Below are positions 4,380 through 36,602 of a DNA stretch of 64,000 nt, in pieces (the first letter of the stretch is position 1; the number at the start of each line of letters is the position of its first letter). The stretch spans positions 1-64,000 of the forward strand of contig NZ_JADYWU010000001.1 of assembly GCF_015864665.1 (NCBI RefSeq). The letters are read 5' to 3'. The position numbers were made by a program, and so were the translations under genes. The notes beneath the pieces are model-generated. The model searched no databases and was not told the DNA's origin. It was given only the letters and a program-made list of their open reading frames with translations. The DNA comes from Salinibacterium sp. SWN167 (lineage in GTDB: Bacteria > Actinomycetota > Actinomycetes > Actinomycetales > Microbacteriaceae).

Positions 4380-4471
4380 GCGGCTACGACTGGGCAGCGG
4401 GGCCCGGCTGGCGACGCGCGACTAGCAAAGAACGCAGCACTGGCGATGCTGGATACGCGAGCTGAACTGCT

Positions 4472-4864
4472 CTAGCCGAGGCTCGATCCCAGGGCACCAA
4501 CGATGTACGGCACGAGCCAGATGCCCCACACGATGACCGAGAACCGGTGAAAGCTGGTCTTCTCGGCTTCACGGTTGCGCACCAGCACGACGATCGCCCA
4601 GGCGAGGTGCACGGCCATGAGAACGATCGCGATCACTCCCGTGACTCCCATCAGCTGGTTCAACGCGCTCTGCTCGATGCCGGCCGCACGATTCTCGGTC
4701 GCGATCAGGTTCATCAGGAACGTGCCCGTGGCATCCGCCGCTAGGCCCAGCCCAAAGAGCACGACATGCCACGGCTTGAGCACCTTCTGCACTCGCTCGC
4801 TCCACACCCCGACGGTGTAAAACACGAGGGCCAGGGTGATGAGGATGATCGCAGGCAGCAGCAT
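4472..4864 (-). CDS. Small four-helix membrane protein (HsmA/TIGR03987-like)
   Basis: Integral membrane protein of 130 residues with four hydrophobic helices at about residues 2-20, 32-52, 72-94 and 106-126. The helix 2 segment LFGLGLAADATGTFLMN and the motif HRFSVIVWGIWLVPY match a small uncharacterised family sometimes annotated HsmA. No enzymatic residues are apparent. The gene is transcribed away from the dienelactone hydrolase gene and lies downstream of the ABM-fold gene on the same strand with a 50-base gap. The family resemblance is recalled, not computed, and the function is unknown. Confidence 0.65.
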   Translation of the reverse strand: MLLPAIILITLALVFYTVGVWSERVQKVLKPWHVVLFGLGLAADATGTFLMNLIATENRAAGIEQSALNQLMGVTGVIAIVLMAVHLAWAIVVLVRNREAEKTSFHRFSVIVWGIWLVPYIVGALGSSLG

Positions 4865-4914
4865 CTCTCTATTTTGGCCTGTTCACGGCTCGCGAGCGAA
4901 AGTGGTTCGGGCGT

Positions 4915-5244
4915 TCAGCCAGTCGTCTCGACCCGCTCGACCTCATCGAAGTGCTCGACGACCGGGAACGGTTCGTAGAATTCGTGCAGCAGAGCTCGCC
5001 ATTGCTGATATTCGGGCGAACCGCGAAACCCGATCTCGTGGTCATCGACGGTGTCCCACCGCACGAGCAGCAGATAGGTCTGCGGATGTTCGGCCCCACG
5101 CGAGAGCGTGAGCCCACGGAATCCCGGCATCGCCGCAATGATGCTCTTTGCCTGGGCAAAAGCCGCCTCGAACTCCGCCTCACGGCCTGGCTTGACGGGG
5201 AGAAGCGCGTGTTCGACGACGCGGCCCTGCTCAGTGGATGCCAT
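4915..5244 (-). CDS. Antibiotic biosynthesis monooxygenase (ABM) fold protein
   Basis: Small 109-residue ferredoxin-like alpha/beta barrel protein of the ABM superfamily. The pattern VVEHALLPVKPGREAEFEAAFAQAKSII, GFRGLTLSRGAE and YLLLVRWDTVDDHE is typical: a beta strand, a helix with the PG-x-E-x-EFE motif, and the W near the second half. Members are cofactor-independent monooxygenases, heme-degrading enzymes or stress proteins. Nothing here decides between them. It is the last gene before the tRNA-Arg insertion and points away from it. Confidence 0.8.
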   Translation of the reverse strand: MASTEQGRVVEHALLPVKPGREAEFEAAFAQAKSIIAAMPGFRGLTLSRGAEHPQTYLLLVRWDTVDDHEIGFRGSPEYQQWRALLHEFYEPFPVVEHFDEVERVETTG

Positions 5245-5296
5245 GGCGTCACTCTAACGAATGCTCAGTGGAGCACGGCTGCGGCCGTTAACGACG

Positions 5297-5322
5297 AAAG
5301 CCCCACACGAATGTGGGGCTTT
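5297..5322 (-). terminator. Hairpin next to the displaced tRNA-Arg 3' fragment
   Basis: Perfect 11-bp stem, AAAGCCCCACA paired with TGTGGGGCTTT, with a 4-base loop. It sits 10 bases beyond the duplicated tRNA 3' end at 5332-5375. On the minus strand it therefore lies where a terminator for tRNA-Arg would be, and it is probably the original tRNA terminator now separated from the functional gene by the insertion. The stem ends with a short T stretch on both strands. Confidence 0.75.
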
Positions 5323-5328
5323 CTGGAG

Positions 5329-5375
5329 TGGTGCGCCCGGAGGGATTTGAACCCCCGGCCTATTGATCCGTAGTC
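5329..5375. repeat. Distal attachment-site copy (orphan tRNA-Arg 3' fragment)
   Basis: Identical over 47 bases to 7268-7314, including the whole T arm, the 3' acceptor strand and the 3' side of the anticodon loop and stem of tRNA-Arg. The match stops abruptly at 5375/7314 inside the anticodon region, which places the crossover between that point and the acceptor end. The fragment has no 5' half and cannot form a tRNA. Confidence 0.85.
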
Positions 5376-5480
5376 GAAAACCATTCCCGCAGAACTATGC
5401 GGAAGTCGCGAAAATCACTGCAAAACACTGGTGACTGGGTGCGATTGTGATGCCGCGAGTTGACTGGGGTGCTCCCCAAA

Positions 5481-5498
5481 TGTGGGTGAAATGTGGGC
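5481..5498 (+). repeat. Paired TGTGGG repeats, putative integrase arm site (left end)
   Basis: Two direct TGTGGG copies, at 5481 and 5492, spaced exactly 11 bases. They lie 106 bases inside the orphan tRNA fragment. The same doublet with the same spacing occurs near the other end at 7191 and 7202. Paired direct repeats flanking a core site are typical of arm-type binding sites of tyrosine integrases. The assignment is inference. Confidence 0.45.
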
Positions 5499-5582
5499 AC
5501 GGCACCACTCGAGATTGTCGGTGCTCCTCACGCCTCGGGCTCTTTCTCTGCGCGATATACGTTGTCAGACGAATACCCGAAG

Positions 5583-6785
5583 CTAACGGTTTGCAGTCCA
5601 GCTCTCGTCTTGGTCGGGAGCGAAGTGCACGCCCAGCTCGTGTGCCAGTGCTCGCATTTGTTTAGAGAGAACGCGCCATTCTTTCTTGGTGATCTCACCG
5701 ATCTCGAACCCGACTCCGCGCACCACACCGTCGGCAACGAAGATCGTTGCGGCAGCCACAGAACCGAGCGTGACATCGGCTTGCTCCGCAGAGAACCAGT
5801 CGGTTGGTTCGGTGGCGGTGCCGCCGCCACCCAAGCTCGCATCCATTTCAAGGAGAGCTTGATGCACGACCGCAGCGTCCAACGGCTGGCCGGCGGCAAG
5901 ATCGTCGGGGTCGTAGTCGCGGGGCGCGATCATGAACTCGTCGTCTTCCAGCTGCGCAAGGGCCGGAACCGTCTTGTCTGGCGCCACTCTGGGCTCAGAC
6001 ACAAACTCCGGCGGGTTGCGCAGCGAATCGAAGTCACTTAGAGGTCGCTCGACTAACGGGGCGAGGATTGAGGGTCCGCGAGGCTCCTCCTTAACTAGGG
6101 CGTGCCAATCATCGAATTCGGTTGAGAACCAGGCATTAAACTGGTGGATATCAGAGTTTCTGCTATTGGTGCCGGCTCTTGCGCCCCACCTACGCAAATC
6201 CACAAAGAGTGGCTCGCTACCCGACTGAGAACGAAATGCCAGCTCGTTGTAATCGACATGGTCTTTGCCTTCAGCGCTGGCAAGACAGAGACGTGTCGAT
6301 GCGTCCAACCGGTGTAAGACCTCAAAAATGTAGCTCGGCCACGCCTGCACGATGTACTGGGTGCGCCGGTATTGGAGCTCGGGGACAAAGCCAAATCCGA
6401 TCGACTGGTCCGTCCGCCACTCGGCGGGGACTACCTCCGCTACCTCAGAGCTGATAAACGATTGAGTCCACTCCCACAGGGTTCCCACACTCGCCCAAGA
6501 CGCATCCATCTCATCAATAGGTCCGCCACTGGCGGCCATCCAATGCGCTAACTCTGTCAGCCGAAAATCCAGGGTGGCTTCAGCGTGCGCCAAGTGGCGA
6601 TTCGCTTGCTCTCGACTCAGGTCATAAGGTTTGATGAGAATCATCCGATCGGCCAATGTACGACGATGGTCATATTGTTTTCCTTCAACATATTTAGCAC
6701 CCGTCGGAGGGCCCGAGTCTTCTTGTGATTCCACTGGCGAGAAAGCTACTCTACGCCTCAAGGCTCCCCAACTTGAGTTTTGCAC
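5583..6785 (-). CDS. Orphan protein of unknown function carried by the tRNA-Arg insertion
   Basis: Predicted soluble protein of 400 residues, or 353 if translation begins at the ATG at 6644 (MILIKPYDLSREQ). The longer form uses a GTG at 6785; neither start has a convincing ribosome-binding site. The N-terminal third (helical, with ASGGPIDEMDASWASVGTLWEW) resembles a segment I associate with uncharacterised actinobacterial proteins that have a TGGP...D.S..SL.PLW.W pattern. A central acidic, low-complexity linker follows at about residues 255-320, then a small alpha/beta C-terminal region ending near HELGVHFAPDQDESW. There is no signal peptide, membrane segment, nuclease, helicase or NTPase motif. 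As the only cargo of the insertion it could be a defence, immunity or regulatory protein, but the sequence does not show which. Confidence 0.6.
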   Translation of the reverse strand: MQNSSWGALRRRVAFSPVESQEDSGPPTGAKYVEGKQYDHRRTLADRMILIKPYDLSREQANRHLAHAEATLDFRLTELAHWMAASGGPIDEMDASWASVGTLWEWTQSFISSEVAEVVPAEWRTDQSIGFGFVPELQYRRTQYIVQAWPSYIFEVLHRLDASTRLCLASAEGKDHVDYNELAFRSQSGSEPLFVDLRRWGARAGTNSRNSDIHQFNAWFSTEFDDWHALVKEEPRGPSILAPLVERPLSDFDSLRNPPEFVSEPRVAPDKTVPALAQLEDDEFMIAPRDYDPDDLAAGQPLDAAVVHQALLEMDASLGGGGTATEPTDWFSAEQADVTLGSVAAATIFVADGVVRGVGFEIGEITKKEWRVLSKQMRALAHELGVHFAPDQDESWTANR

Positions 6786-7190
6786 GAGTTTATGCTCGCC
6801 AGAAGCAGGCAGAGTCCCCTATAAGAGGGCTCGGCACCTCAGTTTGAGTCAGAACGAAGGCCAAGAATCCTGACTGCGGCAAGTTCGCAATCGCGGTCAG
6901 GCCTGACGAGCCCTGACGCGCGATAAGTACGAGTCATCGGATTCGTTGGACCCTAGCGGCGCGAGTTGACGCGCACTGCGGAAGCAACTCACTTAACGAC
7001 GTGAGTGTCGCAGAGAGTGCTGCTTGGGCTGTCACCCCATGAAGAAATAGAGGCCGGCCATGCCCTGATCCCTTGATCGAAGGTCAATGGGTCACCTCCA
7101 CACCATTGACCAAATCCTAGGTAAGCACTGGGCCGACAAGAGCCGAAAGGACCGAATTCCGACCGAAATGCGACCCAAAGCGTTGTGAAG
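6786..7190. other. Non-coding stretch upstream of the orphan gene, with CCTGAC repeats
   Basis: About 400 bases without a convincing gene. It holds CCTGAC at 6869, 6902 and 6912 and the 12-base palindrome GTCAGGCCTGAC at 6896-6907. An 11-base word, CGCGAGTTGAC, at 6960-6970 is repeated at 5454-5464 near the opposite end of the insertion. The stretch is upstream of the orphan gene, so it may hold its promoter and operator. No clear -35/-10 pair was recognised. Confidence 0.4.
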
Positions 7191-7209
7191 TGTGGGCAAA
7201 ATGTGGGCA
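7191..7209 (+). repeat. Paired TGTGGG repeats, putative integrase arm site (right end)
   Basis: TGTGGG copies at 7191 and 7202, 11 bases apart, about 60 bases inside the tRNA-proximal junction. Same orientation and spacing as the pair at 5481/5492. An alternative reading is that the stretch is the tail of a lost integrase gene, since one frame reads VWAKCGQTK directly into the att core. Confidence 0.45.
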
Positions 7210-7214
7210 AACAA

Positions 7215-7264
7215 AAAACAGGCCTGGCCGCACTCCACGAGAAAGTGCTGATCAGACCTGTTTT
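7215..7264 (-). terminator. Terminator of the rebuilt tRNA-Arg, supplied by the insertion
   Basis: Arms AAAACAGG (7215-7222) and CCTGTTTT (7257-7264) with an inner GCACT/AGTGC pairing. On the minus strand the hairpin ends in CCTG followed by six T residues, a good intrinsic terminator 7 bases downstream of the tRNA. It lies inside the insertion, so the element brought a replacement for the terminator left behind at 5297-5322. Confidence 0.7.
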
Positions 7265-7270
7265 AGCTGG

Positions 7271-7343
7271 TGCGCCCGGAGGGATTTGAACCCCCGGCCT
7301 ATTGATCCGTAGTCAATTGCTCTATCCGCTGAGCTACGGGCGC
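7271..7343 (-). tRNA. tRNA-Arg (anticodon ACG)
   Basis: A 73-base cloverleaf without encoded CCA. Acceptor GCGCCCG pairs with CGGGCGC, discriminator A. The D arm is GCTC...GAGC, the anticodon stem ATTGA/TCAAT encloses loop CTACGGA giving ACG (read as ICG), and the T arm has loop TTCAAAT. A TATAGT -10 element lies about 28 bases upstream on the minus strand (7371-7376). The 3' portion is the attachment site of the adjacent insertion and was restored by it. Confidence 0.95.
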
Positions 7344-7429
7344 ATCTCGATGACTTTCGCCAACCAGAAAACTATACCAGCGGATTCGGACTGCCAGTGA
7401 CACTTTTGACAGTCGGATGCCGCGAGCGC

Positions 7430-8179
7430 CTATTTTCTGACGCGAAGGTGCGCGACACCGCCATCAACTTCGAGCGCGGTACCCGTCGTTGAGCCGGAGA
7501 GCGGGCTTGCCAAGTACGCGACCGCGCCGGCAACTTCTTCGGGGGTGACCATGCGGCCGGTGGCCTGGCGGGCGTCCAGAGCGGCACGTTCCTTGACGGG
7601 GTCGTCGAAGCCCTGCAGCATCCGCTCCACGAACGGGGTGGAGACTGTGCCGGGGCTGACCGCGTTGACGCGCACGCCATCCGCCACATGATCCGTTGCC
7701 ATTGCGTAGGTCAGCGCGAGAACGGCACCCTTGGAGGCGCCGTACAGCGCGCGCTGCGGGAGGCCATTGAGGGCGGCGATGGAGCAGAGGTTCACGATCG
7801 CGGCGTGCTCAGACTTACGAAGCCAGGGCATCGCTGCCGCCGACACCCGCGCCATACCGATGACGTTGATATTGAGAACACGCGCCCACTCGGCGTCGTC
7901 GTTTTCTTCGACGGTTCCGACCGCGCTGATACCGGCGTTGTTCACGACGATGTCGATGCCGCCCAACTTCTCGGCGGCCGCAGAAACGGCGGCGTCGACG
8001 GAGGCACGATCTGACACGTCCGCGGTGAATCCGTGGAGGCGAGCATCCAACCCCTCAGTGTTGAGGTCGAGAACCGCAACCGTGGCACCACGCTCTACTA
8101 GCGCGAGTGCCGAAGCGAGGCCGATGCCGGATGCTCCCCCCGTGACGACCGCGACGAGACCGTCGAACTCGGCGCTCAT
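7430..8179 (-). CDS. SDR family oxidoreductase, possibly 2-keto-3-deoxy sugar-acid dehydrogenase
   Basis: NAD(P)-dependent short-chain dehydrogenase of 249 residues, cytosolic. The cofactor loop is TGGASGIG near residue 14, NNAG near 87, and the catalytic set is Ser in NLCSIAAL plus YGASK near 146-150. VSPGTVSTPF follows. Its ATG overlaps the stop of the FAH-family gene (ATGA), and that gene overlaps the Gfo/Idh gene in the same way, so the three form one translationally coupled operon. In non-phosphorylative L-fucose/L-rhamnose degradation an SDR oxidises 2-keto-3-deoxy-L-fuconate and an FAH enzyme then cleaves the diketo acid. The pairing here suggests that role, but substrate is inference. 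Confidence 0.85.
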   Translation of the reverse strand: MSAEFDGLVAVVTGGASGIGLASALALVERGATVAVLDLNTEGLDARLHGFTADVSDRASVDAAVSAAAEKLGGIDIVVNNAGISAVGTVEENDDAEWARVLNINVIGMARVSAAAMPWLRKSEHAAIVNLCSIAALNGLPQRALYGASKGAVLALTYAMATDHVADGVRVNAVSPGTVSTPFVERMLQGFDDPVKERAALDARQATGRMVTPEEVAGAVAYLASPLSGSTTGTALEVDGGVAHLRVRK

Positions 8180-9024
8180 GCCTGCACCAAGGTTTGGCGA
8201 GCGCGACCGAGGCCGTCGATCTCGAGCTCAACGACATCGCCGGCACGCAGGTACGGCTGACCCTCGATGCCCATGGCGACGCCCGCGGGAGTGCCCGTGT
8301 TGATGACATCGCCGGGCTGCAGCACCATGAACTGGCTCAGGTACCAAATGATGTGGTTCACGCCGAAGGCCATATTTGCGGTCGTGCCGTTTTGGCGTTC
8401 GACACCGTTCACCCAGAGGCGCAAGCCCAAGGCTTGGGGGTCGGCCACCTCGTCGGCGGTCACCAGCTCAGGCCCGAACGGATTGAAGGTCTCGCAGCTC
8501 TTGCCTTTGTCCCAGGTTCCGCCACGTTCGAGTTGGAAAGCGCGCTCGGAAACGTCGTGCGACACGGCGTAACCAGCAATGACGGCAGTCGCGTCATCCG
8601 GAGACTCAAGGTAGCGAGCGGTTGCGCCGATCACGACGCCGAGCTCGACCTCCCAGTCGGTCTTCTCGCTCGTGCGCGGGATGAGCACGTCGTCGAAGGG
8701 GCCGACCATGGTGCTCGGGTCCTTCATGAAGATGACGGGTTCGTCGGGCAGCGTTGCACCGGTCTCTTCAGCGTGGTCGCTGTAGTTGAGGCCGACACAC
8801 ACGATCTTGCCGGGGCGAGCGATGGGAGCACCCACGCGCACCCCCTCGGTCTCGATAGCCGACAGGGTGCCGGCGTTGAGCGCGGCACGCACCGCGGCGA
8901 CGCCACCGCTGGCAAAGAAGGCTCCGTTGATGTCGGCGGTGATCGACGTCAGATTGAAGGCGCCACCTTCATCGAGAACAACAGGAATTTCTGAGCCAAC
9001 CGGCCCGAGTCGCGCGAATCTCAC
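8176..9024 (-). CDS. Fumarylacetoacetate hydrolase family protein
   Basis: Metal-dependent C-C or keto-enol enzyme of 282 residues with the FAH C-terminal fold. GLNYSDHAEETG and FMKDPSTMVGP precede the metal site: EVELGVVIG carries the paired Glu, followed by GYAVSHDVSERAFQ with the Asp. The FNPFGPELVT and NTGTPAGVAMG blocks close the active site. This is the layout of 2,4-diketo-3-deoxy-L-fuconate/L-rhamnonate hydrolases and of acylpyruvases. The start is a GTG overlapping the stop of the Gfo/Idh gene (GTGA). Being between an SDR and a Gfo/Idh dehydrogenase favours sugar-acid catabolism over aromatic catabolism. Confidence 0.85.
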   Translation of the reverse strand: MRFARLGPVGSEIPVVLDEGGAFNLTSITADINGAFFASGGVAAVRAALNAGTLSAIETEGVRVGAPIARPGKIVCVGLNYSDHAEETGATLPDEPVIFMKDPSTMVGPFDDVLIPRTSEKTDWEVELGVVIGATARYLESPDDATAVIAGYAVSHDVSERAFQLERGGTWDKGKSCETFNPFGPELVTADEVADPQALGLRLWVNGVERQNGTTANMAFGVNHIIWYLSQFMVLQPGDVINTGTPAGVAMGIEGQPYLRAGDVVELEIDGLGRARQTLVQA

Positions 9025-30007: not shown

Positions 30008-30544
30008 TCAGCGCGCGGGCGCTACCGTTCCGCGCGCGGGATAATCGGTATCAGTGACGTACTCGAGACCATGAATGATGGCTTTCACCGGCATCCGACC
30101 AAACGGCATGCTGGAAACAGTAGTCCAGAACACGGTGTTGTCGGCGTCAAGAATGAACATGCCCGGCTCGCTAAACAGCTCCGGTTCGCCCTTCTTGAAC
30201 CCGCTGGAGAGGAAGAGACCCCACTCGCGAGCTTGCTCCTCGCTCAGCCCATAGGCGAGAGGAAGCCGCGAGAGCTCCCAGTCTTCGATCGAAATCGTGG
30301 CGCGCTTGAGAGTGTCCATGCTGATGGCCACAATGCGCCCCACTCCGGCTTCGCGCAATGCATCCATATTCTCGTCAAGCTCACGCAACTGCTTGCGGCA
30401 CACCGGGCAGTGAAGGCCCCGATAGAAAACGAGAAGAGTAAAACGGCCATCGGCGCCCGTTCCCAGCGCGAGATCCTCAAGGAAACCTCCGCGCGCGAGC
30501 GGCAACGAAAGAGCGGGAGGTTGGGTGCGCGGCAGAATAGTCAT
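30008..30544 (-). CDS. Peroxiredoxin-like thioredoxin-fold protein (AhpC/TSA family)
   Basis: Soluble protein of 178 residues. The thioredoxin-like core has LLVFYRGLHCPVCRKQLREL, with a CPVC pair at the position of the peroxidatic cysteine, then GVGRIVAISMDTL and a C-terminal FILDADNTVFWTTVSSMPFGRMP. It belongs with the peroxiredoxin-like branch that uses CxxC rather than the classical TxxC site. A role in peroxide or thiol chemistry is likely; the electron donor is unknown. Monocistronic, 30 bases from the YaeQ gene on the same strand. Confidence 0.8.
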   Translation of the reverse strand: MTILPRTQPPALSLPLARGGFLEDLALGTGADGRFTLLVFYRGLHCPVCRKQLRELDENMDALREAGVGRIVAISMDTLKRATISIEDWELSRLPLAYGLSEEQAREWGLFLSSGFKKGEPELFSEPGMFILDADNTVFWTTVSSMPFGRMPVKAIIHGLEYVTDTDYPARGTVAPAR

Positions 30545-30574
30545 CTTCTACCCCAACATAGCGGTGGGCGGCAT

Positions 30575-31114
30575 TCATTCCACGTCGTGGCTATGCAGTG
30601 CCGAACTCACCGTGGTGCCGTTGAGCTCGAGATACAGCTGCCCCTCCGTCACCGACAGGGTGACAGCGTTGCGTCGCTCCAGGGCGGCCACAGCGTCTTC
30701 GATGAAGCCGGGATCAAAGCTGCGGAAGACAATTTCGCTCGCATTGTGAATCTTCTTGCCTGCCCACGGAGCTGCAACCTTTACCGGGTCACGGTGCGTG
30801 TAGATGGCGACCCTGTCGGCCAGTTTGCTTCCGTAGTGGAGTCGGGCGGCATCCGGTGCACCGATTTCAATCCAGGCCGTAATCGTGCCGGTGAGGTCGC
30901 GAACCAGAACTGCAGGTTCATTGGTCGACGAGACTCCCTCGCTGAATGCGACTCCCTCTTCGAATTCGAGGCAATACGCGAGCACACGAGTCATCATGTA
31001 CAAGTCTGTTTCAGAGGGATGCCGCGCGACGCGAAGCGTGAAGTCGTCGTAAACCCCGCGGTCCACATCCGCCAATTGCACCGTGAAAGTGTGGATCGTT
31101 GAGCCAGTTGCCAT
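30575..31114 (-). CDS. yaeQ: YaeQ family protein
   Basis: Protein of 179 residues matching YaeQ over its full length: FTVQLADVDRGVYDDFTLRVARHPSETDLYMMTRVLAYCLEFEEGVAFSEGVSSTNEPAVLVRDLTGTITAWIEIG, then KKIHNASEI and FIEDAVAALERRNAVTLSVTEGQLYLEL. The fold is a variant of the PD-(D/E)XK nuclease superfamily, with candidate acidic residues in the EP and WIEIG region; a nuclease activity is not established. ATG start. Confidence 0.88.
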   Translation of the reverse strand: MATGSTIHTFTVQLADVDRGVYDDFTLRVARHPSETDLYMMTRVLAYCLEFEEGVAFSEGVSSTNEPAVLVRDLTGTITAWIEIGAPDAARLHYGSKLADRVAIYTHRDPVKVAAPWAGKKIHNASEIVFRSFDPGFIEDAVAALERRNAVTLSVTEGQLYLELNGTTVSSALHSHDVE

Positions 31115-31177
31115 AACGCCCGAGCCTAGCCTGTGGACGCGCCGGCGCTAGCCAGCGCTCAGGCGCCAGCCATGCGC

Positions 31178-31804
31178 TCAGGAAGCAGCGACGACGGCAT
31201 CCGCTCGCTGGCGCGTCGTGCGGATGAGCACAGCATTGGGTTCGTCGACCTCGGTAACCCAGCGGGCGGCATCCGCCTCCGAACGCCCGTAACGCTCGTG
31301 ACGGGCCACGAGCCTGTCGCGCCGAAGGTCGTCATTGATGTCGAGATACCAGACCTCATCAAGCAGGGGTCGTATCGCACCCCAGCCGGCATTGTCGTGG
31401 AGAAGGTAGTTGCCTTCCGTCACGATCAACGGGGCATCGCCGGGGAGCAGAACCGCGCCAGCGATGGCGGCGTCGATCGCTCGATCGAATCGCGGAACGA
31501 CGACAGTCTCCCCGGCACGCAGCCGACGCAGTGTTGAGGCAAGGCCTTCAACATCGAAAGTCCCCGGCGCACCCTTCTTGTTCCGAAGGCCTAGACGGTC
31601 GAGGTGTTCATTGGCGAAGTGGAAACCATCCATCGGGAGGATGGGCACCGCGAGCTTCTCCGCGAACGTCGACTTACCTGCCCCGGGCGGCCCGACAACG
31701 CCAAGCAGAAAGGGCGCACCGCTTGTGCGCTCGCTCAGCAACTCGATTCGCGCGGCCGCTTCGGCGACGGTGTAGGTTTTCACGACGTCCCTTCGCGTTG
31801 GCAA
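31178..31804 (-). CDS. P-loop nucleoside/sugar kinase-like protein
   Basis: Cytosolic P-loop kinase of 208 residues in the uridine kinase/phosphoribulokinase/pantothenate kinase group. Walker A GPPGAGKSTFAEKL near residue 38, the substrate region PMDGFHFANEHLDRLG, RKGAP-type loop LRNKKGAPGTFDVEG, FDRAIDAA, IVTEGNYLL (Walker B-like), and the lid with RDRLVARHERYGRS. Such proteins are usually annotated as nucleoside/nucleotide kinases; the true substrate may be a sugar such as fructose. The first residues (MPTRRDVVKTYT) may be shortened to a GTG at VVKTYT. Confidence 0.82.
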   Translation of the reverse strand: MPTRRDVVKTYTVAEAAARIELLSERTSGAPFLLGVVGPPGAGKSTFAEKLAVPILPMDGFHFANEHLDRLGLRNKKGAPGTFDVEGLASTLRRLRAGETVVVPRFDRAIDAAIAGAVLLPGDAPLIVTEGNYLLHDNAGWGAIRPLLDEVWYLDINDDLRRDRLVARHERYGRSEADAARWVTEVDEPNAVLIRTTRQRADAVVAAS

Positions 31805-31823
31805 TGATCACCGCTCTTAACGC

Positions 31824-31855
31824 AAGAAAACCCTTGAACAATCAAGGGTTTTCTT
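31824..31855 (-). terminator. Terminator of tRNA-Ser(GCT)
   Basis: Perfect 14-bp stem AAGAAAACCCTTGA (31824-31837) with TCAAGGGTTTTCTT (31842-31855), loop of 4. On the minus strand the hairpin ends in TTTTCTT, 8 bases downstream of the tRNA. Confidence 0.85.
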
Positions 31856-31862
31856 TGCAGAG

Positions 31863-31951
31863 CGGAGACGGAGAGATTTGAACTCTCGGTACCCTTACGG
31901 GTACTCCACCTTAGCAGGGTGGTGCACTAGGCCGGACTATGCGACGTCTCC
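31863..31951 (-). tRNA. tRNA-Ser (anticodon GCT)
   Basis: 89-base type II tRNA. Acceptor GGAGACG/CGTCTCC with discriminator G, anticodon stem CCACC/GGTGG around loop CTGCTAA giving GCT, long variable arm TACCC-GTAA-GGGTA, T loop TTCAAAT. A TATGAT -10-like element lies about 17 bases upstream on the minus strand. No encoded CCA. Confidence 0.95.
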
Positions 31952-32015
31952 AGACGTACTCAGCAATCATAACCGCTTAGGAGCGGAACGACGAACCGAG
32001 CCGCAAATAGAACGA

Positions 32016-33314
32016 TTAGTAGCTGTTCGTGATCGTGCAGGTCTCATCCGCAGCGCTCTGGCCACGAATATCGAGAACCTCGGCATCAACCTCAGGAGCA
32101 GCCGTTGCATTGGGGTCGGCCGACTCTGTGGCTTCGGGGTCCGTAGTCGATTCAACAGAATCAGGGTTGACGTAGGACCCCATGTCGTCTCCAGCGTTTG
32201 CGAGCACAAATGGTTCATCGGCCGCGATCAAGTCAATCATTTGATCACCCAGGTACGTGTTCGGCTGAACCTTGCCCGAGTACACGCCGACGCCGCCAGT
32301 GGTACCGGGGTACTGCACAAACTGAACCGTATCGAGCGGAACATCCTTCAACGCCAGCGCGATGGAGACGAGGGTCGGAACATCGCTGAGTCCAGTCGAC
32401 AGCTGCATGTTATCGATCGCGGCTTGCGCCAGATTGTAGAGCTTCTTGTAGTCACCGAGCGTGTCTTCGCTCTTGAGAGTGCGCACCATCGAAGAAAGAT
32501 AAACCTGCTGCGAACTAATGCGCGTGAGGTCACTACCGTCACCCACACCGTGGCGAGAACGAAGGAAGCCTAGAGCTTCAGCACCCTGAAGTACATATGT
32601 GCCTGCTTCAGGAAGGTTGATGTCTGCGAGCGGGTCAACGAGCGGGCCATCGATACAGACAGGAACGCCGCCGATGGCGTTGGTCATCTCGATGACACCT
32701 TGGAAAGTAATAACGCCGGCGAACTGGATATCGAGGCCGGTGAACTCTGACAGCGTCAAGACGACACAGGCGAGGCCTCCATACGACATCGCCGTGTTGA
32801 GCGCCTCGGTGGAGTAGTACTTGTTGTAATCGCCATCCAAGCTCGGGCACTCCGGAATACCCATAACCAAGTCGCGCGGAAAGCTGATGGCAGTCGCAGA
32901 TTGACCGTCAGCCGCCACATGCAAAATCATGTTGACGTCATTGAGTTCACCAGATTCAACCGCTGCGGAGCCTCCGACGCCGTCCTGATCGACGCGAGTA
33001 TCGCTACCCACGATGAGGATGTTGAAGCCACCCTCAAAGCTGCCGATCTGAGGCGGAGCGCCTTCGGTTTCACCAATGAGGGCAACGGTGTCACGCTGAC
33101 TATAAATATTGTCAAAGGCGACAGCACCAACAGCGGCACCACTGACCAACAAAACAGCGAGCGATGCGGCAACGACCTTAGCGATCGAGCCCCACGGTCC
33201 TGGCTTCTTCAACCGTCCGTGACGTGCCAGACCTTGGACTTCAGGCTTTTTCTTCGAGTCGGTGCGGTCGACAGAGCGCGAACGCAACTCTGAGCGCGGA
33301 CGAAGTTCACTCAT
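32016..33314 (-). CDS. LytR-CpsA-Psr (LCP) family cell-wall glycopolymer ligase
   Basis: Membrane-anchored enzyme of 432 residues that transfers undecaprenyl-linked glycopolymers to peptidoglycan outside the cell. A basic cytosolic N-terminus (about 45 residues, RPRSELRSRSVDR) precedes one transmembrane helix at about 44-68. The LCP domain contains FNILIVGSDTR, SFPRDLVMGIP, the phosphate-binding Arg region LGFLRSRHGVGDGSDLTRISSQQ and MQLSTGLSDVPTLVSIALAL. The Asp/Arg set of the family is present. A C-terminal low-complexity acidic tail (DPEATESADPNATAAPEVDAE) follows. Located between two tRNA-Ser genes. Confidence 0.92.
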   Translation of the reverse strand: MSELRPRSELRSRSVDRTDSKKKPEVQGLARHGRLKKPGPWGSIAKVVAASLAVLLVSGAAVGAVAFDNIYSQRDTVALIGETEGAPPQIGSFEGGFNILIVGSDTRVDQDGVGGSAAVESGELNDVNMILHVAADGQSATAISFPRDLVMGIPECPSLDGDYNKYYSTEALNTAMSYGGLACVVLTLSEFTGLDIQFAGVITFQGVIEMTNAIGGVPVCIDGPLVDPLADINLPEAGTYVLQGAEALGFLRSRHGVGDGSDLTRISSQQVYLSSMVRTLKSEDTLGDYKKLYNLAQAAIDNMQLSTGLSDVPTLVSIALALKDVPLDTVQFVQYPGTTGGVGVYSGKVQPNTYLGDQMIDLIAADEPFVLANAGDDMGSYVNPDSVESTTDPEATESADPNATAAPEVDAEVLDIRGQSAADETCTITNSY

Positions 33315-33359
33315 CGCACTCCCCTTTCTTTAGCCGGAAACAAGACATGACACGCAGAG

Positions 33360-33444
33360 CGGAGGGCGTGGGATTCGAACCCACGAGACATTTCTGCCCA
33401 CCAGTTTTCAAGACTGGCTCCATCGGCCGCTCGGACAGCCCTCC
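33360..33444 (-). tRNA. tRNA-Ser (anticodon TGA)
   Basis: 85-base type II tRNA. Acceptor GGAGGGC/GCCCTCC, discriminator G, anticodon stem CCAGT/ACTGG with loop CTTGAAA giving TGA, long variable arm, T loop TTCGAAT. Directly upstream the 15-base palindrome CTTGCGT-G-ACGCAAG (33444-33458) overlaps the 5' end region, just downstream of a TACACT -10-like element. Confidence 0.95.
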
Positions 33445-33532
33445 TTGCGTGACGCAAGTTCAGAGTGTATCTGATGCCCGCAAGGCGTACCTGAAAGGCA
33501 GGCTAGAAGGCTCGAAATGGGGGTAGTGAGGT

Positions 33533-35149
33533 CTAGCCGTGCAGCCGAAGCGCCGCCCACACCTCAAGCCGCCCCTCGAACGACTCCAGATCGAGGTTCA
33601 GGATGCTCGCCGCTTGGTCGACGCGCGACCGCACCGTATGCCGATGAACGCCGAGCTTCGCAGCCGTCGCGCCCCACGAACAATCGTTCGCAAACCAGGA
33701 GCGCAACGTCTCCACGAGAGCCGCCGAATGCGCGCTATCGAAATCGCTGAGCGGCGTGAGCACTCGGTGCGCCACTCGCTCAGCACCAGCAGCCTGGAGC
33801 ACCCCGAGCATTCCGGAGTCGCCAATATCGGCGAAATCAGTGAGCCCAGCCTGACCGCTGCGAGCGTAGAGGGCGCTGGATGCGTGCCCGAGCGCTGCGC
33901 CCAGCCCCGCATAATCGACGGCACTGGAGCTGCCTGCCACGAGCTCGTGGTCAGCGATGAGTTGTGTGAGGTCTCGCTGCACGTCGGTCAGTTCAGAAGG
34001 CAGTGCGGAGAACTGCTGCTGTGCGCCCGCTTCAACGAGAACGACGACGGTGTCGCCGCGAACGGCGAAAAATGCGCTGCCGTCGGCATCGAGCGAGAGG
34101 GCGTCGAGGGCATCCAGTACGAAGTGGCTGTGGGTTTGCCGTGCAATCGCCACGACGCTCAGCGGCGCTACCGGAAGAGCGCCCCACACTTCGCCAGCAA
34201 TCGCCGCGGCCGCGGCGACGTTGCCTGAGAGCACCAGCTCGAGCAGTGACGATCTCAGCTGACCACGCGTGGCATCCAGGGTGCGGTTCTGTTCAAGCGC
34301 AAGGGTGGCCATCGCGATCACGCTCGTCACGAGTTCGTTCTCAGCACGATCAAGAGGCACGCCGCGGCCAAGAGCCAGCGCACCGCGCAACTCTCCGTTC
34401 TGGCCGAGGGTCTGGATGGTGACTTGCCCAGAGTCGAGGGTGAAGGCGGTGGATGACCGGCTGCCCTTGCGCAGCGCCCGCGCCACCTCATCCCTTACCG
34501 GCTGAGCAAAGCGAGCTGCGGAGCGTTGCTGGCCAGGAACGGGGATCGGGTGACCTGTCGCGTCGAAGAGCCCAACCCAGCATGAGAGTTGACGTTCGAG
34601 CTCGATGAGGGTTGACCGCAAGCCTGTTGGTTTGAGAGCGGCGTGCGAAATGGCTTTGTGGGCAGAAATCGACCATGCCATGCGACGGCTGCGCTCCGCC
34701 GCGATGCGATCAGCGACTTCGCGGATGACCGCAATAAAAGGAACGCGATCAGGAACGTCAATAAGGGGGAAGCCCACACGCGCACAAGCAGCAGCGAGCG
34801 CCTCTGGCATTCCTTGGTGAAGAAAGTGCGTTGCGAAACCGAGCCCGACAAGACCGGTGTCGATGAGGCGCTCAATGTAGGAGTCGTAGTCGTAAAGCTC
34901 AGCAGCTGCTCCGAACCCGAACTGCGCACCATCGGTGAGCAAGACATTGCCGCGGCTCAAGAACGGCGTCGGGTCATCGAGGTCGGAACTGTGCACCCAA
35001 CTGATCGGAGCGCTCATTCTGGCCGTGAAAGCGGAGCTGAGTCTGGCACTCTCCACGGGGCTGGCGTTAGCGCCTCCGGTGGCGCTCACCTCGATCACGC
35101 TCAGTCGCAATGTGCGCCTCGTGAGCAGCCATTGAATCGTCGGGAGCAT
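33533..35149 (-). CDS. PucR family transcriptional regulator
   Basis: Regulator of 538 residues. An N-terminal purine-catabolism PucR domain (about 1-150, with GNVLLTDGAQFGFGAAAELYDYDSYIERLIDTGLVGLGF) is followed by a GGDEF-like CdaR region and a C-terminal PucR helix-turn-helix: TLRSWFANDCSWGATAAKLGVHRHTVRSRVDQAASILNLDLESFEGRLEVWAAL. Divergent from a class III aminotransferase gene across a 133-base spacer. Such pairs typically control degradation of an amine or amino acid such as GABA, so local control of the aminotransferase is likely. Confidence 0.9.
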   Translation of the reverse strand: MLPTIQWLLTRRTLRLSVIEVSATGGANASPVESARLSSAFTARMSAPISWVHSSDLDDPTPFLSRGNVLLTDGAQFGFGAAAELYDYDSYIERLIDTGLVGLGFATHFLHQGMPEALAAACARVGFPLIDVPDRVPFIAVIREVADRIAAERSRRMAWSISAHKAISHAALKPTGLRSTLIELERQLSCWVGLFDATGHPIPVPGQQRSAARFAQPVRDEVARALRKGSRSSTAFTLDSGQVTIQTLGQNGELRGALALGRGVPLDRAENELVTSVIAMATLALEQNRTLDATRGQLRSSLLELVLSGNVAAAAAIAGEVWGALPVAPLSVVAIARQTHSHFVLDALDALSLDADGSAFFAVRGDTVVVLVEAGAQQQFSALPSELTDVQRDLTQLIADHELVAGSSSAVDYAGLGAALGHASSALYARSGQAGLTDFADIGDSGMLGVLQAAGAERVAHRVLTPLSDFDSAHSAALVETLRSWFANDCSWGATAAKLGVHRHTVRSRVDQAASILNLDLESFEGRLEVWAALRLHG

Positions 35150-35282
35150 CCGGTTTCTCCCCTCATCGCCCTGTAGTCACATTATGTCGAACAATTGGTG
35201 ATCTGGTGTACATATTGGCAGCCACGCGCGAGTGGCCGGCAGCAATAGTTGAGTCATTCAGCTTCGTCACGAAAGGTGCCCC

Positions 35283-36602
35283 ATGAACTCCGCGCCCGCA
35301 ACACCCCAGCACAGCAACGCCGACACCGTCGCGCTTGACCGCGCCCACGTATTCCATTCCTGGTCAGCACAGGGCGCACTCAAACCGCTCGTGCTCGAAG
35401 GCGGCCTCGGAAGCATGGTCTGGGACGACGAAGGAAACGAATACCTCGACTTCTCGAGCCAGCTCGTCAACGTCAACATCGGCCACCAGCATCCAGCAGT
35501 CATCGCCGGCATCAAGGCACAGGCCGACATCATGGCTACCGTCGCGCCGGCCCACGCCATCAACATCCGCGGCGAAGCAGCCCGCAAAATCACCGACCAC
35601 GCGCCCGACGGCATGAACAAGGTCTTCTTCACCAACGGTGGAGCGGATGCCAACGAGAACGCCATGCGCATGGCCCGCTTGCACACCGGCCGCGACAAAA
35701 TCATCTCGCGCTACCGCTCGTACCACGGCAACACCGGATCGGCCGTAGTCGCCACCGGCGACTGGCGCCGCATCCCCAACGAATACGCTCGCGCCCACCT
35801 GCACGTGTTCGGCCCCTACGAGTACCGCTCCGAATTCTGGTCGGACTCCCCCGAACAAGAATCCGAGCGCGCCCTGCACCACCTAGAGCGCACCATCCAA
35901 GCGGAAGGCGCCGAGTCAATCGCCGCGATCCTGCTCGAAAGCATCCCCGGAACTGCTGGCGTGCTGACCCCGCCGCCCGGCTACATGGCTGGTGTTCGCG
36001 CGATCGCCGACAAGTACGGCATCCTGCTGATTCTGGATGAGGTCATGGTCGGCTTCGGTCGCACCGGACACTGGTTCGCGTTCGAAGCGTTCGACGTGAA
36101 GCCCGACCTCATCACCTTCGCCAAGGGAGTGAACTCCGGCTACATCCCCGTCGGCGGTGTGATTATCTCTGACGAGATCGCCGCAACGTTCGACGAGCGC
36201 GTCTTTCCCGGCGGACTCACCTACTCGGGTCACCCCATCGCGGCTGCCTCGATCGTCGCGGCCATCACCGCGATGGAAGACGAAGGCATCATCGAGAACG
36301 CTGCCATGATCGGTCGCGATCACATCGGCCCCGGCCTTGCCGCTCTCGCCGAGAAGCACGACTGCATCGGTGACGTTCGCGGAAGCGGCGTGTTCTGGGC
36401 GCTCGAACTGGTCGCCAACCGCGAGACGCGCGAGCCTCTCAGCGCGGCTGACATGGGCCGCATCAAGGGTGCGCTCGTGAAGCGCGGACTGTTGCCGTTT
36501 ATTGCCGACAACCGCATCCACGTCGTACCGCCGGCTGTCGTGACACCCGACGAAGTTGCGCGCGCCATGGCCATCTACGACGAAGCGCTCAGCGAGCTTT
36601 AA
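35283..36602 (+). CDS. Class III PLP-dependent aminotransferase
   Basis: Cytosolic omega-amino acid or GABA/putrescine-type transaminase of 439 residues. Seen: GNEYLDFSSQLVNVNIGHQHP, PLP phosphate loop FFTNGGADANENAMRMAR, YHGNTG, the Asp that binds the pyridine ring in LLILDEVMVGFGRTG, and the Schiff-base Lys in ITFAKGVNSGYIPVGG. GLTYSGHP precedes the active-site dimer contacts. ATG at 35283 with AAAGGTG upstream. Controlled, by context, by the divergent PucR protein. The amino donor cannot be identified; omega-amino acid:pyruvate transaminases are the closest by motif. Confidence 0.9.
   Translation: MNSAPATPQHSNADTVALDRAHVFHSWSAQGALKPLVLEGGLGSMVWDDEGNEYLDFSSQLVNVNIGHQHPAVIAGIKAQADIMATVAPAHAINIRGEAARKITDHAPDGMNKVFFTNGGADANENAMRMARLHTGRDKIISRYRSYHGNTGSAVVATGDWRRIPNEYARAHLHVFGPYEYRSEFWSDSPEQESERALHHLERTIQAEGAESIAAILLESIPGTAGVLTPPPGYMAGVRAIADKYGILLILDEVMVGFGRTGHWFAFEAFDVKPDLITFAKGVNSGYIPVGGVIISDEIAATFDERVFPGGLTYSGHPIAAASIVAAITAMEDEGIIENAAMIGRDHIGPGLAALAEKHDCIGDVRGSGVFWALELVANRETREPLSAADMGRIKGALVKRGLLPFIADNRIHVVPPAVVTPDEVARAMAIYDEALSEL

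Follow-up and report, generated by a model that had tools for sequence, protein, structure and literature searches.

Is a short segment that is bounded by attachment sites at a tRNA gene and carries no integrase a decayed island, or a cassette that is moved by an integrase supplied in trans? The question is raised by a locus of Salinibacterium sp. SWN167, of the family Microbacteriaceae, lying in the 64,000-nucleotide stretch of DNA that we analysed (NZ_JADYWU010000001.1, positions 1 to 64,000; hereafter the window). The mechanics of insertion at tRNA 3' ends and the binding of arm sites by integrases of this kind are established. ARAGORN found just one tRNA-Arg gene in the window, tRNA-Arg(ACG) at 7268-7343 on the minus strand (Rfam RF00005, 71.1 bits). 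The 3' part of this gene, 7268-7314, is the right attachment core of the unit, and it is repeated on the plus strand as the left core at 5329-5375 with an identity of 47/47. The cores lie 1,939 bp apart, start to start, and enclose one large, intact minus-strand gene together with arm-type repeats near both ends, so that the insertion with a perfect 47-bp repeat described in the original prediction was borne out. Profiles for tyrosine (PF00589) and serine (PF00239) recombinases gave no match within the unit, and the segment was matched at one place in its own genome. The window also has tRNA-Ser genes at 31862 and 33359, and the region around them (30500-35500) was searched for repeats without revealing an exact att-like pair; the three direct-repeat pairs in that stretch were 20-32 bp long and 75-85% identical, one of them being the two tRNA-Ser genes themselves.

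Both ends of the unit are structured. The left-end module (5329-5504, plus strand) consists of the core and the next ~129 bp; it forms part of a gap-free alignment of 21 left ends and scored 162.7 bits with the left-end model R2, which has the window in its training set. It includes a pair of arm-type repeats on the plus strand at 5478-5499 (AAATGTGGGTGAAATGTGGGCA), a probable integrase arm-binding site. The right-end module (7076-7267, plus strand), also seen in the right-end alignment, scored 155.9 bits at 7076-7277 with the right-end model R1, whose training set also contains the window. It contains a AGGTCAAT-type repeat at 7081-7094 (plus strand), 187 bp before the core and one mismatch away from AGGTCAATAGGTCA. 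A second arm-type pair on the plus strand at 7188-7209 (AAGTGTGGGCAAAATGTGGGCA) was identified by repeat search and by comparison of right ends. It is followed by a minus-strand hairpin with a T-rich tail (7217-7263), which is conserved in right ends. The hairpin was seen in the fold of the minus strand of 7205-7343, the z of -3.04 being that of this whole stretch with the tRNA included, and it was absent from the list of a consensus terminator scan. Once the unit is inserted, the hairpin could act as the terminator of the tRNA. A 12-bp perfect inverted repeat at 5296-5323 is near-identical to a hairpin that abuts the tRNA at the empty site of the relative G001, suggesting that, before the insertion, it probably served the tRNA gene as its chromosomal terminator; it now lies beyond the unit.

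The gene carried by the unit encodes an uncharacterised protein. Its listed open reading frame spans 5583-6785 on the minus strand; relatives in G001 and G008 align from an ATG at 6644, suggesting that the frame is probably too long and that the gene is 5583-6644 (353 aa). The gene is intact, with dN/dS of 0.14-0.26 in six pairs of four sequences, one of them partial. Searches of Pfam, PHROGs and PADLOC with the protein gave no match, and NCBIfam gave a single weak one (E 0.039). Of 398 genomes of the family, 10 had a match to the gene at E<=0.001, the window genome among them. A 1,772-aa open frame of the homologue in G011 was considered as a larger gene and rejected as an artefact, the stretch there reading N. 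The relatives in G001 and G008 are located at a different chromosomal locus from the tRNA-Arg site. This second locus is variable (contig C3 of the window genome, 206-217 kb; L056 11367-12428), and the window genome has ~10.7 kb of other DNA there.

We compared the tRNA-Arg site across the genus by BLAST of 4400-8300 against 27 genomes, followed by a scan of the matching regions for cores. Eighteen units were mapped at tRNA-Arg(ACG) in nine Salinibacterium genomes, singly or in tandem and from 1.9 to 15.7 kb in size; tandem cores were observed at the tRNA of several genomes, for example six in G025 from 1172749 to 1252255. An empty site, whose absence from relatives would have counted against the original prediction, is present in the close relative G001, where both flanks join at one core and the intact tRNA comes next. 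G014 likewise has an intact tRNA and a single core, with ~1.9 kb of different DNA on the left of the core. Both ends are present in 17 of the 18 units, the exception being U9 of G012, which has a chromosomal-type right border. The original prediction of a compact recurring unit held for the shared ends, the varied cargo and the common tRNA, and was not supported for size: the median is 5.3 kb (17 sizes), which makes the 1.9-kb, one-gene window unit the small extreme. A longer, integrase-bearing version in most relatives, the finding that would speak for simple decay, was looked for and not found; the recurring units are mostly without an integrase. One right end with a core, in G016 (C6 139.5 kb; L072 9460-9698), lies away from the intact tRNA and ~1 kb from an integrase-like match, and is perhaps a rearranged array.

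The small size of the window unit has to be judged apart from what the family as a whole is. The second unit of G011 (6.5 kb, ~4.6 kb longer) is collinear with it at both ends, at 95% and 84% identity, and because this sibling has the same two ends, the window copy may be a version of it shortened by internal deletion. That the window unit is on this account a dead copy is a tentative proposal that we rather doubt: its ends and its gene are intact, and a cassette that has been shortened could go on serving as a substrate as long as its ends are complete.

The cargo varies between units and includes toxin-antitoxin, Fic, methylase, Kdp and metal-pump genes, among others. Pfam searches of 30 chosen unit proteins identified Fic, AbiEi/AbiEii, MMPL, P-type ATPases, CtaG, N6 methylase, an Asp-Al exchanger, KdpA, KdpD, cutinase, multicopper oxidase and SpoIIE, as well as other domains, and several of the proteins were without a match. 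With PADLOC, AbiE and SoFic came out on top among the best 25 of 132 families for 80 unit proteins. Few genes are common to units in an all-versus-all BLASTP: sharing was observed among U0/U2, U3/U5/U8 and U10/U11, for one gene of U1/U13, and as some distant similarities. U8 of G005 looks like two fused units, as it holds a left-end remnant without a core, followed by DNA with AbiE genes 78% identical to U3 of G025. No intact recombinase gene was found in the units. Across the 27 genus genomes at E<=0.001, PF00589 matched nothing inside the 18 units apart from one fragment with a stop (U9 of G012), one G011 unit being covered in part. PF00239, searched in 12 genomes including the nine with mapped units, had no match inside units and one match inside a large island of G025. 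An rve-type transposase gene is present in U6 of G025.

What the units do share is their ends, a 176-bp left end and a right end of ~200 bp in 17 of the 18. The spacing within the left end is exact, since 21 sequences, two of them from another genus, align over 180 columns without a gap. In a set of 21 left ends that includes two from large islands, mean pairwise identity was 81% at positions 47-175 and 28% at positions 180-400. The right ends, ~200 bp of which are common across genera, have a constant order: a AGGTCAATAGGTCA-type motif ~187 bp before the core, a CCCAGACAAACACTGGG-like block, the arm pair, the terminator-like hairpin and the core. Of the 17 complete mapped units, 15 have AGGTCAATAGGTCA in the right end with at most one mismatch; U1 of G011 and U6 of G025 are the exceptions. 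The AGGTCAAT motif of the right ends may bind an extra factor, for example a directionality protein. It usually occurs as a single pair; at ~1172473-1172566 of G025 C1 (L047 7474-7567) the 8-bp repeat forms ~12 iteron-like tandem copies (11 overlapping motif matches).

The arm sites stand out within the left end. In 19 integrase-less left ends (18 distinct), all 18 columns of the repeat pair (GTGGGTGAAATGTGGGCA) are invariant, compared with 25 of 99 spacer columns (one-sided Fisher 9e-10, an optimistic value given the relatedness of the rows and the exclusion of divergent left ends, of which at least one, at 1177683 of G026, has a degraded arm). The older or divergent ends left out of these counts, and of the identity means above, number three in G026 and one each in G006, G017, G020 and G022. 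Invariant arms are as expected if an integrase still reads them. They bear on a different account of the locus, by which RecA would swap cargo through the conserved ends and the flanks, the att repeats being passive relics. Ends of ~176 and ~200 bp could support such exchange, and U3 and U5 of G025 are near duplicates at 98%. Left- and right-end distances are correlated (Mantel r 0.49 for 17 units; r 0.38, p 0.02, once two duplicates are removed), and ends from one genome resemble each other more than ends from different genomes do, which fits local homologous recombination too. This account nevertheless seems very unlikely to us, as the arm sites are invariant while the spacer drifts and the empty site is precise. 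In addition, G012 holds one unit more than G013, beyond a last unit that is 99.4% identical to that of G013, although this extra unit is without the usual right end.

Which integrase might read the arms is suggested by two arrays. In G025 and G023 the unit adjoining the tRNA is an island, of 59 kb and 66 kb respectively, whose last gene encodes a 387-aa tyrosine integrase. The two integrases are 99% identical; the G025 protein has a catalytic and a SAM-like domain, its arm-binding domain falling just under the cut-off. Both islands have the left end common to the units but a different right end, composed of the integrase gene, AAGTGTGGGTGAAATGTGGGCA, a terminator-like stretch and the core. The right arm of these candidate helpers and the common left arm have an exact 20-mer in common, from which the window left arm differs by one base outside the 18 invariant columns. 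The 20-mer GTGTGGGTGAAATGTGGGCA occurs at 16 places in 9 of 398 family genomes, and in G215 this tRNA, again accompanied by the arm, adjoins the end of an 85% identical integrase. Integrases of the helper family were examined at 22 loci: a clear arm pair lies at the integrase 3' end in four (L122, L132, L134, L139) and single arm motifs in five more, with none in the rest over the stretch examined; the motifs often stand before other tRNA genes, which were read by eye.

At E<=1e-60 nothing in the window genome matched the helper integrase; the genome has one 54% fragment and one 30% relative. The fragment (C1 ~695 kb; L093 ~6961-7496) has arm-like repeats and lies beside a tRNA-Ser-like sequence, the latter read by eye. 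Elsewhere in G025 (C1 1392-1417 kb), eight PF00589 matches are clustered in ~24 kb. A phage origin of the large G025 island was considered and rejected: the best 25 of 38 PHROGs families matched by 50 chosen proteins were without capsid, tail or terminase, and included integrase, ParA, transposases, helicase and one endolysin match. A viral contig (L122) holds a relative of the integrase that is 45-47% identical, and a core was not present there even with 10 mismatches allowed.

The same arrays could be taken to mean that the units are cis-mobilizable elements, remnants of integrase islands that have lost the integrase and that move, if at all, only with a neighbouring island by accretion. The tandem arrays of G025 and G023, with the integrase island nearest the tRNA, are consistent with this, as are the left end common to units and islands, the integrase fragment in one unit and the left 2,126 bp that U6 and the 59-kb island of G025 have in common at 99.8%; the definition in the excerpted text of PMC5704250 also fits. 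Independent deletions would leave different right borders, yet 17 of the 18 units have one right-end module, and AGGTCAATAGGTCA had no match within two mismatches in either integrase island (G025, G023). The right end of the cassettes is therefore not just an island end minus its integrase.

The right-end module also recurs in other genera. R1, a sequence-only model built from 12 genus genomes and G243, matched 15 of the 27 genus genomes at E<=1e-6, including G007, G018 and G020, which were not used in training, at 57, 142 and 70 bits. Across the family, its matches at E<=1e-5 come from 10 genera and 21 of 388 genomes, some being weak and the weakest rows partial at ~27 bits. Scores above 100 bits outside the genus were obtained for seven genomes of four genera, or six of three without the training genome G243. 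In six of these seven genomes the match ends at a tRNA-Arg(ACG) gene identified by ARAGORN; in G108 the program found none there. In G242 and G362 a left end lies ~12-13 kb from the right end, making complete units. Searched up to 250 kb from the R1 match along its contig, the seven genomes gave no PF00589 match, though several of these contigs are short. R2 also matches the tRNA itself, so that its 26 of 27 genomes are not a unit count; left ends above 100 bits were found in 11 genomes. Decay alone would be expected to give varied right borders and eroding arms; one right-end module across genera, together with arms invariant among the ends compared, therefore favours cassettes served in trans, and we regard decayed, cis-mobilizable remnants as unlikely.

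Collectively, these results make it somewhat probable that the segment belongs to a family of non-autonomous attachment-site cassettes for tRNA-Arg(ACG), served in trans by an integrase family that uses the same site. Each cassette would consist of a left-end module, cargo and a right-end module. In a circular form, the right end, core and left end would together make up a full attP, with arm sites for the integrase on either side. A helper island that matches the cassette in arm sequence and tRNA target would supply the tyrosine integrase that inserts it into the tRNA 3' end. The inserted right end would provide a new terminator for the tRNA, repeated insertion at the regenerated tRNA site would build tandem arrays, and loss of an internal core would fuse neighbouring units into a composite. 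Transfer between cells would likewise be part of this reading. The broader proposal, to which we give an even chance, is of a cross-genus class of tRNA-Arg(ACG) cassettes with conserved att modules, free cargo and integron-like arrays, mobilised in trans by a tyrosine integrase that binds the arms, with AGGTCAAT possibly binding an additional factor. If this is true, classical tRNA-targeting integrases support non-autonomous cassettes of their own, as integrons do CALINs and transposons MITEs. Small islands that have att flanks but no integrase, and that are readily written off as decayed, could in that case be gene cassettes in active use, to be recognised by conserved ends rather than by genes. 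One integrase and two short DNA ends would also be enough to put trans-mobilisation at a tRNA site to a direct test.

The titles and abstracts of the open-access literature contained no description of such cassettes, which, open access being the limit, is weak evidence of absence. As for phage satellites of the PICI and PICMI type, which have helper-phage packaging or phage-derived genes, the window gene was without a PHROG match, no phage or plasmid sequence matched the ends of the window unit by blastn, and a search for the 20-mer in viral contigs found none. CIMEs resemble the cassettes in being att-flanked, integrase-less and in tandem at a tRNA gene; by definition, according to the excerpted text of PMC5704250, they have arisen from an ICE or IME through decay. 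As in CIMEs, attL and attR are kept, with 47-bp cores on both sides of the units. With regard to descent by loss of the integration and transfer genes of an ICE or IME, no intact recombinase was found in the units, but their right end is unlike that of the two integrase islands. It is this cross-genus module, with a motif absent from both islands, that sets the cassettes apart. The microcin H47 island of E. coli is small, without an integrase, and is reported to excise and integrate with recombination functions supplied by its context (PMC3191183, in part). The window unit is similar in lacking a recombinase gene of its own (PF00589, PF00239), but the H47 island is, as far as that excerpt describes it, one 13-kb system with imperfect direct repeats, whereas the cassettes have many cargoes and constant ends at a tRNA. 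Islands at ssrA in Dehalococcoides are in tandem at one RNA gene, and 15 without an integration module were suggested to be cis-mobilizable; they differ in using a serine recombinase, and the excerpted text of PMC3146451 mentions no common end module for the integrase-less ones. CALIN arrays and MITEs carry recognition sites only and are moved by the enzyme of another element (PMC11389934, in excerpt). Their sites are integron attC sites or transposon ends, in contrast to the arm-type attP at a tRNA; the boundaries here are 47-bp tRNA 3' ends with arm repeats. On our best reading, the cassettes are comparable to CALINs, MITEs and cis-mobilizable elements, yet have conserved ends of their own.
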